This document shows positions 1-5,633 of a stretch of DNA of 64,000 nucleotides, one piece after another (position 1 is the first letter of the stretch; every line of letters begins with the position of its first letter). This stretch comes from Butyricimonas synergistica DSM 23225. Its GTDB lineage: Bacteria; Bacteroidota; Bacteroidia; Bacteroidales; Marinifilaceae. The stretch spans positions 1-64,000 of the forward strand of contig NZ_KB903371.1 of NCBI RefSeq assembly GCF_000379665.1. The letters are read 5' to 3'. The notes beneath the pieces are model-generated. The model searched no databases, was not told the DNA's origin, and was given only the letters and a program-made list of their open reading frames with translations. The translations under genes were made by a program, and so were the position numbers.

Positions 1-1
1 A

Positions 2-931
2 AACAAAGATATATTATTAGGAACAGCTATAGGTGATGCTTTAGGATTGCCAGTTCAATTTTTAGATAGAGAAGTTATAGCAAAAAATCCAGTTACGACA
101 ATGGAGGGACTCGATCAGTTTAATATACCAGCAGGTACATGGTCTGATAATACTTCTTTATCCTTTTGTCTAGCAGAATCCCTCTGTAATGGTTATGACC
201 TAAATGATATTATCAACAAGTTCACGAAATGGATGTATGAAGACTATTGGACACCAGCTAACGAAACATTTGATATAAACTATATAAATTATTTTGCCAT
301 TGTAAATTTAAGAAATAATGGATCTCCACATGTAACAGGGATAGACAATAAACGAGGTAACCGTGACGGATCACTCATGAGGATTCTTCCACTAGTACCT
401 TATATCCTTAACATGGAGGAAGAAAATAGATTTAGGATAATAAAAGAAATTTCCTCGTTAACCTACAGGCACTCAGGAAGTATTTTAGCCTGTATCGCAT
501 TATGTGAATTTGCCATACAGTATATCAACCTCCAATTAGTAGAGGAAGCCTACCAAGCTATGCAGCAAACAATACTACAACTTCTGAAAAAGGAGATGTT
601 TATTGAAGAAGATATTCCTTTTAAAAGGTTAGTAGGCTTATCTTATGAAGAATTTAAAGCTATTGAATTGAAGGATATTCATTCTACAGAATATGTTATA
701 GATACACTAGAAGCCAGTTTATGGTGCATCTTCAATACTACTAACTATAAAGATGCTGTTTTAAAGGCTGTAAATTTAGGTGATGACACTGATACAGTTG
801 GAGCGATTACAGGAGGATTAGCAGGGATTATATACGGTTATGATACTATTCCTTCTGAATGGTTGGAGGTATTAGCAAAAAAAGATGATATTATTGAATT
901 AGCTGATAAACTGGATTCAATAATGAAATAA
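2..931 (+). CDS. ADP-ribosylglycohydrolase family protein (5' end cut by window)
   Basis: Members of this family (DraG/ARH) remove ADP-ribose from proteins, nucleic acids or small molecules using a two-metal centre. The open frame runs from base 2, upstream of any start codon, and its first visible residues give the family hallmark GTAIGDALGLPVQF, so only about ten residues are missing. The other signatures are present: GSLMRILPL in the middle and the C-terminal metal motif GDDTDTVGAITGG. The first metal motif, normally [ST]DDT, reads SDNT here (codons TCT GAT AAT ACT), so one aspartate ligand is replaced by asparagine. The gene is AT-rich, unlike the chromosomal genes to the right, and lies with recombinase genes, which fits mobile cargo. 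It could be an immunity or anti-ADP-ribosylation protein whose partner lies left of the window; that is inference. Confidence 0.88.
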   Translation, partial: NKDILLGTAIGDALGLPVQFLDREVIAKNPVTTMEGLDQFNIPAGTWSDNTSLSFCLAESLCNGYDLNDIINKFTKWMYEDYWTPANETFDINYINYFAIVNLRNNGSPHVTGIDNKRGNRDGSLMRILPLVPYILNMEEENRFRIIKEISSLTYRHSGSILACIALCEFAIQYINLQLVEEAYQAMQQTILQLLKKEMFIEEDIPFKRLVGLSYEEFKAIELKDIHSTEYVIDTLEASLWCIFNTTNYKDAVLKAVNLGDDTDTVGAITGGLAGIIYGYDTIPSEWLEVLAKKDDIIELADKLDSIMK

Positions 932-987: not shown

Positions 988-1114
988 ATTTGTGGAATGT
1001 ACACTTTCTATATTAGTGAACGTTTCTCTTATTATCAATCACTTACAATTTAGGGCTATTTTCTGGCTCTACAAAATATTCACTTACATATTTAATCTTA
1101 TAAATTTGAACGTT

Positions 1115-1702
1115 ATGAGTTTGAAGTATTCTAACACCACGGCAGACCGTCTGGATTGGGCTGATATGCTTAATCTAACTAGAAAACTAATACAGGACGG
1201 GAATTATAAAATCGCTTTGTTTATCACGCTAGGTTCTTTCTGGGGATTACGTGTGTATGACATGAAGCAACTCACTTGGTTGTTGATTCTGGATAAGGAT
1301 GAAATCATCATCACGGAGCACAAAACGGAGAAGAAAAGGACTATTCCCATTTCTCCACAACTAAAGAAGTTCATCACGGATTGTTACAACCACATTAACC
1401 CCGTTTGCCTTAATTCTCCTGTCTTTCTAAGCCAGAAGAAAACCGTTTACTCCACCCAACAGCTAAACAGGATTCTAAAGCAGATAAAGACTAAGTACAG
1501 GGTAAACGTCAAAAATTTCTCCTGTCATAGTTTACGCAAGACTTTTGGGAGGCAGGTTTACAACCAGAATCCAGAGAATGCGGAAAGGGCTTTAGTTATG
1601 CTTATGGATATGTTTAACCATTCCTCTTTGGCTATCACAAGACGGTATATTGGATTGAGGCAGGAAGAGGTTGCGCAGACTTATGAATCTTTGTCATTCT
1701 AG
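1115..1702 (+). CDS. Short tyrosine recombinase/integrase (catalytic domain only)
   Basis: The product cuts and rejoins DNA through a tyrosine nucleophile. At 195 residues it is about half the length of a typical Bacteroidales integrase and lacks the N-terminal SAM-like and core-binding domains. The catalytic set is visible: Arg in WGLRVYD, a beta-hairpin Lys in HKTEKKRTI, HSLRKT (H-x-x-R), NHSSLAITRRYIG with the last His and the Tyr. I chose ATG 1115 because the in-frame extension back to 992 reads like non-coding AT-rich DNA. Small catalytic-only recombinases of this size, such as FimB/FimE, can act as inversion switches, but no flanking inverted repeats were found here. It could equally be a remnant of a longer integrase. 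Confidence 0.8.
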   Translation: MSLKYSNTTADRLDWADMLNLTRKLIQDGNYKIALFITLGSFWGLRVYDMKQLTWLLILDKDEIIITEHKTEKKRTIPISPQLKKFITDCYNHINPVCLNSPVFLSQKKTVYSTQQLNRILKQIKTKYRVNVKNFSCHSLRKTFGRQVYNQNPENAERALVMLMDMFNHSSLAITRRYIGLRQEEVAQTYESLSF

Positions 1703-1763: not shown

Positions 1764-3548
1764 TTATTCTTCACGTTTCATTTTTAAGTTTTCATTATAC
1801 TGTTTTCGATATGAATAGTCTATTCTTAATGATCTTAGTTCTGCAATTTCACTTTTTAGATATTCTTGAATAGTTATTTCTTTTGTTGTAACAGTAGTGT
1901 TTAGGGAGAAATTTTTTAGACTTGTATTTTTAGATGTTTCTTTATATTCTGTAATTAGAAGGGTATCTTTGTTTAGCGTATATTTATCTGGTAAGATAGA
2001 AACTAGAGGGCTTCTAGCAGTTTTTCTAACAGCAATGATGAACTCTAAACCACTTCTAAATTGAATGACATAAAAACCTTGCATCATAGTGACAGTGTAA
2101 TAGGTAACAGAGGCAAGATGTTTGTGGAATAATTCTCCTTTTTCCTGAATATTAAGATTATCTAGTTTCTCTTTTTTTCTGGTGTCAATTAATCTTAGTT
2201 TATCAGCTTCTTTACTGAGTTTTGCATCAGTTAGTTTGTTCATTTCTTTTTTAAGAGCTTCAATTTTATTTTCTATTTCGATTTGTTTGTTTTGTACCGC
2301 AGTGCGTAATGTGGAAGAACGTGCTTCTAAATAGCTTTGTACTAATTCTTGATTTTCTGCTTCTAGGTTTGAACGAATTAACTCTTTATTTTTGATTTGT
2401 TTATTCAAACCGTCAATCTCTTCAATTAAGTTTTGTACTTTGTTATCAATTTGTCCTTTGAAAAAGTCAATATTTTCACTATAATTCATGTATTTGAATA
2501 AGCTATATATAATTTCATTGGTTAGATGATAAGAGATTTCATCCTTAAAATGGCAGGCAATAGGATTGTCTTCTGTTCCCACGTAACTACATCTGTATGT
2601 GAGTTTGGTGACAGCCTTTTCTGGTTTCTTGTCCTTTACAATCATGGAACGTCCACATCGACATTTGAAAATTCCTTTTAATGGGTTGTATAAATTTTTG
2701 CCAGTTGATTTATATTTATGATTTTCTTTTACCAAAAGATTTGCCCTGTCAAAATCTTCTGGTGTAATTATTGGTTTAATATTGACAGAAATGATGCTTG
2801 CTTCTTCTCTATCGAATTTTAATTTCCTTTCTCTAACTCCTTTGTAAATAGAATGTTTAATTAATCTACCTAATAACTGTCTGGTAACAAAGAACCCTCT
2901 AAATGTAATATTTCTATTATTGAAGTATCTTGCGACTTCTCCAAGTGAATATCCTGATAATATTAATTCATAGACTTTTTTTATGTGTTCAACTTCTTGT
3001 TCATTTTCTTCGAGAATTTTTTTAGGTCTACGTCCATTAGGATTATAGATTGCTTGGAAGCCAAAAGGTATATTACCATCAACCATAGCATAGGGGTTAT
3101 TTGATAATATAGCTTGTTTGCCTTCTTGATTTTTTCTTTTTATTTCGATTCTTTCTTTTGCATTTTTGTCGGCACTAACAAGTAAGGTTATTAGTTCTAT
3201 TAAATTCAGAGCTTGATTAGCTTTATAATATTTACTTGCATCGTCTAAAAATACCACGTCTAAGCCATGATATATAATATTTTGAATTGTATTGACTGTA
3301 ATTAATGTTTCCTCCCTGCTCAATCGAGATAATTCTGAAATTACTAATATTTCTCCATCTTTATCTGTAAGAGATTGTAACTTAATATAGCCTTCTTGAT
3401 CAGCTCTTGCCCCAGAAATTCCGTAATCTACAATTTCTTGAACAATTTCATAGTTGTTTCGATCGCAATACTCTTGAATTTTCATCCTTTGTCTTGCGAC
3501 ATCTTGCATTTTAGTTGAAACTCGAATATAAGTAATAGCTTTTTTCAT
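1764..3548 (-). CDS. Large serine recombinase (site-specific integrase)
   Basis: At 594 residues this matches the large serine recombinases that integrate and excise mobile elements at short attB/attP sites. The N-terminal resolvase domain (about 1-150) has the catalytic serine in YIRVSTK (Ser11) and the conserved arginines in SELSRLSR. A recombinase domain follows (about 155-290), then a zinc ribbon with CRCG and further cysteines (near 295-335), and a long coiled coil (about 370-445) typical of the subunit-interaction motif. The start codon lies 48 bases from the att-like repeat at 3596-3625, the usual position for an integrase next to its own att site. A TATCTTTG box on the minus strand (3573-3580) is a likely -7 element. 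The gene is strongly AT-rich and probably moves the element that carries it. Confidence 0.93.
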   Translation of the reverse strand: MKKAITYIRVSTKMQDVARQRMKIQEYCDRNNYEIVQEIVDYGISGARADQEGYIKLQSLTDKDGEILVISELSRLSREETLITVNTIQNIIYHGLDVVFLDDASKYYKANQALNLIELITLLVSADKNAKERIEIKRKNQEGKQAILSNNPYAMVDGNIPFGFQAIYNPNGRRPKKILEENEQEVEHIKKVYELILSGYSLGEVARYFNNRNITFRGFFVTRQLLGRLIKHSIYKGVRERKLKFDREEASIISVNIKPIITPEDFDRANLLVKENHKYKSTGKNLYNPLKGIFKCRCGRSMIVKDKKPEKAVTKLTYRCSYVGTEDNPIACHFKDEISYHLTNEIIYSLFKYMNYSENIDFFKGQIDNKVQNLIEEIDGLNKQIKNKELIRSNLEAENQELVQSYLEARSSTLRTAVQNKQIEIENKIEALKKEMNKLTDAKLSKEADKLRLIDTRKKEKLDNLNIQEKGELFHKHLASVTYYTVTMMQGFYVIQFRSGLEFIIAVRKTARSPLVSILPDKYTLNKDTLLITEYKETSKNTSLKNFSLNTTVTTKEITIQEYLKSEIAELRSLRIDYSYRKQYNENLKMKREE

Positions 3549-3595: not shown

Positions 3596-3625
3596 CATGG
3601 GTTAATCCGAAATGTTATTTGAGTA
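3596..3625. repeat. Left copy of att-like direct repeat in the DUF486 reading frame
   Basis: This 30-base segment, beginning CATGGGTTA and ending TTATTTGAGTA, is repeated at 5393-5422 with 28 of 30 identical positions. Both copies sit at the same codon position of a DUF486-type gene, just before the segment coding for the ANR-G-GNGGPFSLMQLK region. The left copy has an in-frame TAA at 3603-3605 that the right copy lacks. It is probably a recombination product (attL or attR) of the neighbouring serine recombinase. Confidence 0.6.
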
Positions 3626-3836
3626 TTCATTTCAAATTCCAGCAAATCGTATTGGCTTCCACGGGAATGGAGGCCCATTCTCGTTGATGCAATTGAAAAT
3701 AATTCAAGAAGTTATAACCTTAATTGTTTTTACAATCTTTACTGTCGTTTTTTTTAAAGGTGAATCATTACAGTGGAATCATTTTGCAGCTGGCGTTTGT
3801 TTGGTGCTTGCAGTATATTTTGTATTCTTGAAATGA
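3612..3836 (+). pseudogene. 3' fragment of a DUF486 (DMT-type) membrane protein gene, element-borne copy
   Basis: The 74 residues match the C-terminal two thirds of small DUF486 membrane proteins: the PANRIG motif, GNGGPFSLMQLK, IIQEVITL, then two hydrophobic helices. The first transmembrane segment is missing; complete members are about 110-120 residues. In frame upstream is a TAA at 3603-3605, so it is not joined to a 5' half here. It is AT-rich and clearly diverged from the second fragment at 5394-5633, which suggests a replacement 3' end carried by an integrated element. Translation from ATG 3612 is possible but a function is doubtful. Confidence 0.7.
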
Positions 3837-3866
3837 TTACAGGAAGAAAATTCTTTTCAATGCAAA

Positions 3867-4964
3867 TCAATAATCAATCTTTCTTGAGATTCTTGATCTG
3901 ATTTTATATTGAGAAGTTTCATAGCAATATCTACCAAGTACGACACTTGGATGTATACCTACTTTATTTGCGAATTCAATTAATTTTTTGTCAAAAATTG
4001 CATGATTAATGCAAATGTTTTCTCGTTTAAATTTTGACCATTCATCTTTAGGAATCAAAATATCTTTGGCAAAAACATTTGCTTCGTTTTCTTTTATAGA
4101 AACTTCATCTTCAATATTCAATTCTCCGTTATTACCCTCTGTATATAGATGATTATATACATGATAAATTTCATGGAAAATAGAAAATATGAAATTATCA
4201 ATTGTGGCTTTTCTTAAAGTAACAGCAATAACAGGAATATTGTCACTCAAAAAAGAATATCCGTCAATTGGTGCTTGTTCTGGTTTTGAAAGAATGATAA
4301 ATTTTATACCATATTTGTTGAGAATATTTAGGGTTTGGCTTTCTAAATTTTTTCCATTTAAATAAGCAGTTTTTAGATCTCTAACGAGTTCATCTTTTTT
4401 TGATAAATCAAATGGATTTTGCAAACAAATACCTTTAGCTTTATAGCGGACTAATTGGCACCAGCCTCCAATATTTACAGCATTATTACATAGTTTTTCT
4501 GACTTTTTGAAATATGCTTTTTGGGTTGCAACATAATGAAGTAAATCATTTATATCTCTACACTGATAAATATCCCATATTCTCTCAATATTTTTGCTAA
4601 GAGAATTAGTTAGTAAGCCTAATTTTTCAAAATATTTGACAGGAACATTTTCTTTAATAATTTTCCAAAGCTCGATATCTTTTATACGTTCGATGTTCTT
4701 TTGCTGAATAGAGGCTGAATCTAGATCATATTGATTTTGGAGATCCAACCAAAATTTAGCATCAATACCTAAACTAGCTTCTAATAATATAGCTGTATCT
4801 ACTGTAATTGATCGTTTACCTTTTATGAGTTCATTTAATGCTGTTACTGGCATACCTATTTCTTTTGCAAAATCTTTTTGCTTTATTTCTCGTGCATCCA
4901 ACTCATCTTTTAGAATCTCTCCTGGATGTGTTGCTTTGTACGGTAGAGTATTTTTTGTTGCCAT
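3867..4964 (-). CDS. HigA-type antitoxin with ImmA/IrrE metallopeptidase domain
   Basis: The 365-residue product begins with a HigA-style Xre helix-turn-helix (about 8-65, with THPGEILKDEL near its start) that should bind the operator upstream of the operon. The C-terminal half (about 220-325) is an ImmA/IrrE-type zinc peptidase with HEIYH at residues 264-268 and the following E-A-N-V-F-A helix. The gene starts 6 bases after the stop of the RelE/HigB-like toxin gene, so the two are cotranscribed with the toxin first, the usual Hig order. The protease domain makes it a long antitoxin. In related proteins such domains cleave repressors, so it may both repress and be a switchable partner; that part is inference. 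Confidence 0.85.
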   Translation of the reverse strand: MATKNTLPYKATHPGEILKDELDAREIKQKDFAKEIGMPVTALNELIKGKRSITVDTAILLEASLGIDAKFWLDLQNQYDLDSASIQQKNIERIKDIELWKIIKENVPVKYFEKLGLLTNSLSKNIERIWDIYQCRDINDLLHYVATQKAYFKKSEKLCNNAVNIGGWCQLVRYKAKGICLQNPFDLSKKDELVRDLKTAYLNGKNLESQTLNILNKYGIKFIILSKPEQAPIDGYSFLSDNIPVIAVTLRKATIDNFIFSIFHEIYHVYNHLYTEGNNGELNIEDEVSIKENEANVFAKDILIPKDEWSKFKRENICINHAIFDKKLIEFANKVGIHPSVVLGRYCYETSQYKIRSRISRKIDY

Positions 4965-4970
4965 AAAACA

Positions 4971-5291
4971 TTATTTATAATGATTACTTAATTCTAATAG
5001 AGAGCAAATTATAACCTTATTAGGTTCTCTTTCTTCTTCATAGGAACGAAATTCTATCCTATACTGATTGTTTACTCGAACAGATTCAATATTTTTCTTA
5101 TTTCCTTGAAGTTTTTCATAGTTCAAATTGTGGAGTTTATATAAAAACTCTGTATTAGGAGCATTTTTTAGAGTGTCAACGACTCTTTTATATCTATCAA
5201 TAATAGAGGGTTGAAACCGATATTTCTTATTTTTCGCCTTACCCTCTTCATATAATTCTCTTAAATATTCATTTTCAAAAACAATCTCCAT
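4971..5291 (-). CDS. HigB/RelE-like toxin
   Basis: The 106-residue product has the layout of RelE/HigB mRNA interferases: a basic helical front part, the HNLNYEKLQGNKK segment, then the strands SVRVNNQYRIEFR and VIICSLLELSNHYK, which match the catalytic sheet of HigB (NxxYRIxFR). I chose ATG 5291 over an in-frame ATG at 5342 because a TAnnTTTG promoter box lies at 5311-5318, between the two. The antitoxin gene follows after 6 bases. The module lies between the two DUF486 fragments, so it appears to be the cargo of a small element, possibly stabilising it. Confidence 0.82.
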   Translation of the reverse strand: MEIVFENEYLRELYEEGKAKNKKYRFQPSIIDRYKRVVDTLKNAPNTEFLYKLHNLNYEKLQGNKKNIESVRVNNQYRIEFRSYEEEREPNKVIICSLLELSNHYK

Positions 5292-5310
5292 ATTGTTTAT
5301 AAATATACGA

Positions 5311-5318
5311 CAAAGATA
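5311..5318 (-). promoter_or_regulatory. -7 box of the toxin-antitoxin operon
   Basis: The minus strand reads TATCTTTG, fitting TAnnTTTG, 20 bases upstream of the chosen toxin start. The expected -33 position falls inside the palindrome at 5332-5360. Confidence 0.6.
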
Positions 5319-5331
5319 TGAAATTGTTTCT

Positions 5332-5360
5332 AAATAATTCACTATTATAGTGAATTATTT
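5332..5360. promoter_or_regulatory. 29-base perfect palindrome, likely antitoxin operator
   Basis: Arms AAATAATTCACTAT and ATAGTGAATTATTT are exact reverse complements around a single T. The palindrome covers the expected -33 region of the toxin-antitoxin promoter, the classic place for autorepression by a HigA helix-turn-helix. No other gene in the window has this sequence. Confidence 0.65.
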
Positions 5361-5392
5361 TTTTGTGTTGTTATTTTGGTAATACTAAATAA

Positions 5393-5422
5393 CATGGGTT
5401 ATTTCGAAATGTTATTTGAGTA
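5393..5422. repeat. Right copy of att-like direct repeat in the DUF486 gene
   Basis: This is the second copy of the 30-base repeat at 3596-3625 (28/30 identical). Here the frame is open (ATG GGT TAT TTC GAA) and continues into a DUF486 3' end with the base composition of the chromosome, so this copy marks the junction between AT-rich accessory DNA and host DNA. Confidence 0.6.
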
Positions 5423-5633
5423 CTGTGCGCAGGTGCCGGCTAATCGCTTGGGATTCATCGGTAACGGGGGACCTTTTTCTTTGATGCAATTGAAAGTTAT
5501 TCAGGAAGTAATCACCTTGGTCATTTTTATTATTTTTTCTGTCCTTTTCTTCAAAGGGGTGACTTTCCAATGGAATCACCTGGCTGCTTGTATCTGTCTG
5601 GTACTTGCCGTGTACTTTGTTTTTATGAAATAA
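5394..5633 (+). pseudogene. 3' fragment of the host DUF486 (DMT-type) membrane protein gene
   Basis: The 79 residues cover the C-terminal part of a DUF486 protein: EYCAQVPANRLG, GNGGPFSLMQLK, VIQEVITL and two hydrophobic helices ending in VYFVFMK. The N-terminal membrane helix is absent because the accessory DNA begins at the repeat. Codon use and GC resemble the genes to the right, so this is probably the original chromosomal 3' end, with the 5' half expected beyond the left edge of the window. It ends 5 bases before the convergent btuD stop. Confidence 0.72.

Follow-up and report, generated by a model that had tools for sequence, protein, structure and literature searches.

In Butyricimonas synergistica DSM 23225, a chromosomal DUF486 gene is probably interrupted by a serine-recombinase element (element 1) that inserted at a GA dinucleotide of the gene, brought a complete foreign DUF486 copy with it and now forms a composite with a short segment carrying a HigBA toxin-antitoxin pair. 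The window analysed here comprises 64,000 nucleotides at the start of contig C13 (NZ_KB903371.1), and its first 452 bases are the last 452 bases of contig C11. In the window, a 30-base repeat occurs at 3596-3625 and 5393-5422 with 28 of 30 positions identical. A first reading made from the letters alone (the sequence-only reading) had pointed this repeat out, and it proved unique within the window, as a scan of both strands found no third site with 10 or fewer mismatches. Searching a 27-base form of the repeat with up to 3 mismatches returned 1 of 393 genomes of the order, the window's own, solely at those two places; this draw of 393 left out the same-genus relative G004, itself a carrier of the arm. 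The reversed 27-base control gave no hit in the order genomes among the matches listed, and the arm was not found in viral contigs.

The repeat had been placed at one codon position of two DUF486 3' fragments in the same orientation. Both copies do run in frame into the 3' half of a DUF486 gene (PF04342; profile positions 38-104 on the right and 39-104 on the left), but the bases upstream of 3621 and 5418 are element DNA, and only the last bases of the repeat, from GA onward, belong to DUF486. The repeat is mostly a recombinase arm followed by a GA core, which is the start of an invariant Glu codon of DUF486. Repeat and junction comparisons define attR1 (3596..3625, + strand) as the right arm of element 1 plus the GA core at 3621-3622, and attR2 (5393..5422, + strand) as a second right arm plus the GA core at 5418-5419. 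In a 150-base alignment of the window's two right ends, the DNA preceding the arms was barely alike; the likeness of the arms therefore probably reflects a binding site. The arm at the left edge of the cassette, as we call the DNA between the two cores, is part of the serine-recombinase element; the arm belonging to the cassette itself is the one on the right. From the core of attR1 runs F3' (3621..3836, + strand; PF04342), an open-frame foreign DUF486 3' half from outside the host genus lineage with 75% protein identity to the host half, and from that of attR2 runs the host DUF486 3' half (5418..5633, + strand; PF04342), which grouped with its genus in the tree (95/90). The left fragment was AT-rich as described earlier, with 34.1% G+C versus 44.3% and 47.4% in the host flanks; the cassette had 28.6%.

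The remainder of the host gene lies to the left of the window. Locus L009, which begins at C11:233000, contains the host DUF486 5' half (L009:776-930, assigned from the contig overlap and sequence) beside an inverted copy of the arm (L009:926-955), and the look leftwards that the sequence-only reading had called for thus recovered both the 5' half and a further arm copy. The third 3' end to which the 5' half was predicted to be joined is ruled out: past the junction, the 5' half reads Lys-Asn-Ser and then stops at L009:944-946, three codons after the junction (FEYKNS-stop). Next comes a complete foreign DUF486 gene of 122 aa (L009:1017-1385), read in the same direction as the split gene; in the tree, this foreign gene grouped with the same-family genera g13 and g4 (97/92), apart from the host genus. 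All six genomes of the genus that were compared have DUF486. The four relatives G001, G002, G003 and G005 each contain one intact copy and provide the empty site, while the window's own genome (G000) gave 4 matches and G004 gave 3. The intact single copy in 4 of 6 genus genomes and the 5' half beside an inverted arm on C11 support DUF486 as the attachment site. The 452 bases shared by C11 and C13 (window 1-452, L009:13241-13692) lie inside an ADP-ribosylglycohydrolase gene of the element 1 cargo.

A single contig of G004 shows the same arrangement: the host 5' half leads into the inverted arm and the complete foreign DUF486, and further on come the recombinase (99% identical), the arm and the host 3' half. 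The G004 element spans 29.8 kb overall and does not contain the HigBA segment. Element blocks of the two genomes were up to 98.1% identical, versus 84.5% (933 b), 80.8% (3365 b) and 82.2% (225 b) for matches in the host flanks; that the element blocks are far closer than the host flanks points to interspecies transfer. The other element blocks were 91-94% identical and two short ones about 84% (83-94% as the range given), so the element is a mosaic and its transfer was not a single clean, recent event. The cargo in G004 included a protein matching PADLOC PDC-S20 (E 3.7e-158) and an AAA_15/AriA-like protein, and that in the window's own genome an HNH protein and an ADP-ribosylglycohydrolase. 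The extra cargo of G004 (L027-L029; G004:C2, approximately 204-234 kb) comprised the PDC-S20 and AriA PADLOC matches and a trypsin-TPR protein.

The crossover point was located by comparing the two ends of the G004 element. The shared GA is preceded by C and followed by G in attL, and preceded by T and followed by A in attR; since these mismatches flank GA, exchange is placed at GA. These are the first two bases of the Glu codon in a Glu-Tyr pair that was invariant in 6 aligned DUF486 proteins. When attP was joined in silico, inverted arms centred on the same GA were obtained for element 1, the composite, G004 and a more distant element in genome G272 of another family, with 18/26, 19/26, 19/26 and 16/26 paired arm positions, respectively. 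Among 10,000 shuffles, the same pairing was reached 9, 2, 3 and 122 times, the symmetry being weaker in G272. As element 1, the composite and G004 have arms in common, only two of these four cases are independent.

The G272 element follows the same plan: a host 5' half, inverted arm, foreign DUF486, a recombinase 42% identical to that of element 1, arm and host 3' half. It is 20.2 kb long, its carried DUF486 starts 77 bases inside the element, and the DNA outside the recombinase gave few matches to element 1. The G272 host half grouped with that of its genus mate G352 (95/82), and its carried copy was not placed in the tree. Matches to the recombinase were found in 2 of 393 order genomes at 1e-60 (G272 besides the window's own), in 2 of 56 family genomes at 1e-30 (G004 besides the window's own), in 1 of 340 class genomes with a two-sequence profile (its own) and in 1 of 4 genomes of G272's family (G272 itself); the order and class searches scored only the first candidates per genome, so that distant relatives may be missed. 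A search of genome contigs returned one locus, with coordinates as in G004. DUF486 itself is common, with a match in 206 of 393 order genomes and at least two matches in 7 of these 206. When the six multi-match genomes besides the window's own were re-examined together with three more, only G272 combined a split and an intact DUF486. The second DUF486 of G144 is a decayed near-complete copy, and those of G155, G260, G275 and G370 were short, shifted or weak in the match table; none of these five was kept as a split case. Viral contigs yielded 1 partial relative by recombinase alignment, 2 relatives of HigB, none of the carried DUF486, and 5 loci by DUF486 alignment, in none of which tblastn detected the element 1 recombinase. 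Recombinase relatives were present in 29 plasmid and 43 phage records, all below 60% identity and with less than 80% of the query covered. DUF486 was present in 22 plasmid and 4 phage records, and the two inspected had chromosomal-type neighbours. In Bacteroides finegoldii NZ_OY725936.1 (L115:6440-7366), a record labelled as a plasmid with chromosomal-type genes, a gene annotated as a 'site-specific integrase' adjoins an intact DUF486. Sequence comparison shows that insertion is specific to GA, that different species share the element, that both element types carry a DUF486, and that element and cassette have an arm in common.

Element 1 is 15.9 kb long, or 17.7 kb with the HigBA segment; both lengths depend on the join between C11 and C13, of which G004 is no test because it lacks the gene where the two contigs meet. 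The serine recombinase gene described earlier (1764..3548, - strand; 594 aa) starts about 50 bases inside the right arm. Its product combines Resolvase and Recombinase domains in one long protein, as in large serine recombinases (PF00239 and PF07508 above the cut-off, PF13408 below), and element 1 has a defined attL and attR and an empty site in relatives. The window recombinase had no match at threshold to the CcrB equivalog model and is not assigned to the SCC/Ccr group. The element proteins that were scanned, a subset of the open reading frames, included no relaxase. A tyrosine-recombinase-like gene with the catalytic part only (992..1702, + strand; PF00589 over residues 73-224, profile 23-170 of 172; 195 aa in the G004 copy) adjoins the serine recombinase gene in both the window's genome and G004, and perhaps has a role in excision. 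Together, the serine-recombinase element and the HigBA segment make up a true composite integrative element. Its kind is already known, and its unusual feature is the spare copy of the target gene.

In both element types, the complete foreign DUF486 is the first gene inside the left end. It begins 77 and 84 bases in from the core, runs in the direction of the split gene and has an open frame. Between the window's genome and G004, the carried gene differs by 6 silent base changes and 1 replacement. What is new is that each element brings a complete foreign copy of the gene that it splits. Genome comparison shows that element 1 inserts at GA of the Glu-Tyr codons of a chromosomal DUF486 (DMT_6) and splits it. 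The carried copy probably stands in for the function of the split gene; because it lies 77-84 bases inside the core in the same direction, it is perhaps read from the host promoter. That the gene is instead chance cargo, which does not replace the split gene, we consider improbable. The cases are limited to two element types, and many genomes of the order have a DUF486, but position, direction and open frame agree in two types whose recombinases are only 42% identical.

The cassette measures 1,797 b from core to core. It contains the DUF486 3' half, a gene for a HigA-type antitoxin fused to an ImmA/IrrE-like domain (3867..4964, - strand; 365 aa; PF01381, PF06114, TIGR02607 above cut-off) and a HigB-like toxin gene (4971..5342, - strand, starting at a GTG at 5342 or an ATG at 5291; PF05015, 34.5 bits, cut-off 27), with the serine recombinase gene to its left. 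Both genes are as the sequence-only reading described them. The HigB-like gene matched no NCBIfam or PADLOC family at the threshold used; with PF05015 and TIGR02607 both above cut-off in adjacent genes, the two form a predicted HigBA type II toxin-antitoxin pair. There is no recombinase gene inside the cassette, in agreement with the earlier reading, and its arm is common to the serine-recombinase element. Both flanking sites are of the attR type (P arm plus DUF486 3' end) rather than attL plus attR. Removal of 17.7 kb in silico restored the 122-aa frame of the host protein, and removal of 15.9 kb left an in-frame chimeric DUF486 of 122 aa. Judging from the sites, attL x attR1 could release element 1 alone (15.9 kb) and leave this chimera, and attL x attR2 could release the whole composite (17.7 kb) and restore the host gene. 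The HigBA pair would help the composite to be retained.

How F3' and the HigBA pair came to lie between two right arms can be explained in several ways. For canonical serine integrases, attP pairs with attB and, in the presence of a directionality factor, attL pairs with attR. By this rule, the cassette should not insert into attB, since its own site is of the attR type. In the order of events first proposed, a small cassette with a replacement 3' end entered before element 1 and left a chimeric intact DUF486, and element 1 then joined at the site thus restored, in the manner of CIME-IME tandems or the Dehalococcoides ssrA islands. Such direct accretion yields the exact structure in two steps and the host-F3' chimera would be an open 122-aa frame, but a P.F3' site is of the attR type, whose pairing with attB would be unexpected for canonical serine integrases, and the TAATAACCC motif of the P' arm is absent from F3'. 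Serine-recombinase tandem islands at ssrA, some without an integration module, are known from PMC3146451, and the G272 recombinase is weakly CcrB-like (68 bits against a cut-off of 900), both in favour of direct accretion, which we regard as rather unlikely. We also think it unlikely, and a little more so, that the 1.8-kb segment is a scar, left by an element that once occupied this site, unable to move by itself and carried along only when the whole unit is excised. Only 30 bases separate F3' from higA, the segment has no recombinase or further gene, and the arm was absent from the 392 other order genomes and from viral contigs; however, the two arms match at 28/30 positions and the junctions of arm, core and gene are unbroken, as expected of working sites.

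The most likely origin of the segment's DUF486 fragment, held at slightly less than even confidence, is a nested route. Another element with the same specificity, X, would have carried a DUF486 copy that element 1 entered, and ordinary attL x attR exchanges would then have left the right part of X (F3', HigBA and arm) joined to element 1. In one variant, attL1 x attRX would release the composite as a circle that has a proper attP (PX.P'1) and could enter a new host; in the other, attLX x attR1 would leave a host-F3' chimera that element 1 re-entered. This route fits the pairing rule better, as ordinary attP x attB and attL x attR reactions suffice. No second P' arm or F5' half of an element X was found in this genome. 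At the DNA level, in a comparison that excludes the G004 host 3' half, F3' was nearest to the carried copies (75.1% for G004, 74.7% for the window's genome), followed by G312 (72.9%). At the protein level, F3' was 75% identical to the host half, and an origin from a carried copy is opposed by its being closer to the host genes of G133 (86%) and G312 (85%) than to the element 1 carried copy (82%). The tree did not resolve its placement.

Several features of the composite resemble known systems. PMC5704250 describes IMEs and CIMEs arranged in tandem, and IMEs with a serine recombinase whose insertion disrupts dispensable genes; as here, insertion is site-specific within a gene, tandems share one specificity, some units have sites and no integration genes, and toxin-antitoxin genes are among the cargo. 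Whereas those IMEs hit dispensable genes, the element here splits a gene of which it brings a complete copy. The Dehalococcoides islands at ssrA (PMC3146451) are likewise tandem at one gene, with a serine recombinase beside one end and 15 islands without an integration module; there the 3' end of the gene is repeated as a 20-bp direct repeat, whereas here the gene is cut internally and the element has a whole copy of it. The composite island CGI48 also contains a toxin-antitoxin pair, HipAB, reported to stabilise the island (PMC8978831), but its integration sites and toxin-antitoxin family differ. Integration of one ICE inside another is reported in PMC12942858. PD-Lambda-2, a toxin-antitoxin-like phage-defence system (PMC9519451), resembles the segment in having a HigB-like gene beside a HigA-peptidase fusion, and its component B profile matched HigA-ImmA over residues 5-360 (E 2e-36). 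As this likeness covers nearly the full length, the pair may act in phage defence; unlike the three-component system, whose third component is P4-antitoxin-like, the segment has two genes between the arms and matched component B alone. PMC11968277 was set aside because its subject is DUF4867, not DUF486. Searches on such elements and on DUF486, with a few terms and covering titles and abstract starts of the open-access literature, gave no description of an element with a whole copy of the gene it disrupts.

Because the carried copy keeps the target codons, it would itself be a fresh insertion site. Serine integrases join attP only with attB, so the build-up of several elements at one site needs explaining, and a carried target copy would at once spare the host the loss and offer a new attB. 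We therefore put forward, tentatively, that this element family escapes the cost of splitting a gene by means of a complete copy readable from the host promoter and that this copy may serve as a fresh insertion site, so that elements could nest, swap ends and leave recombinase-free toxin-antitoxin units to be mobilised in trans. A complete gene beside such an element may not be the host's own, and in gut Bacteroidales the carried copy would explain in a simple and testable way how composite islands arise.
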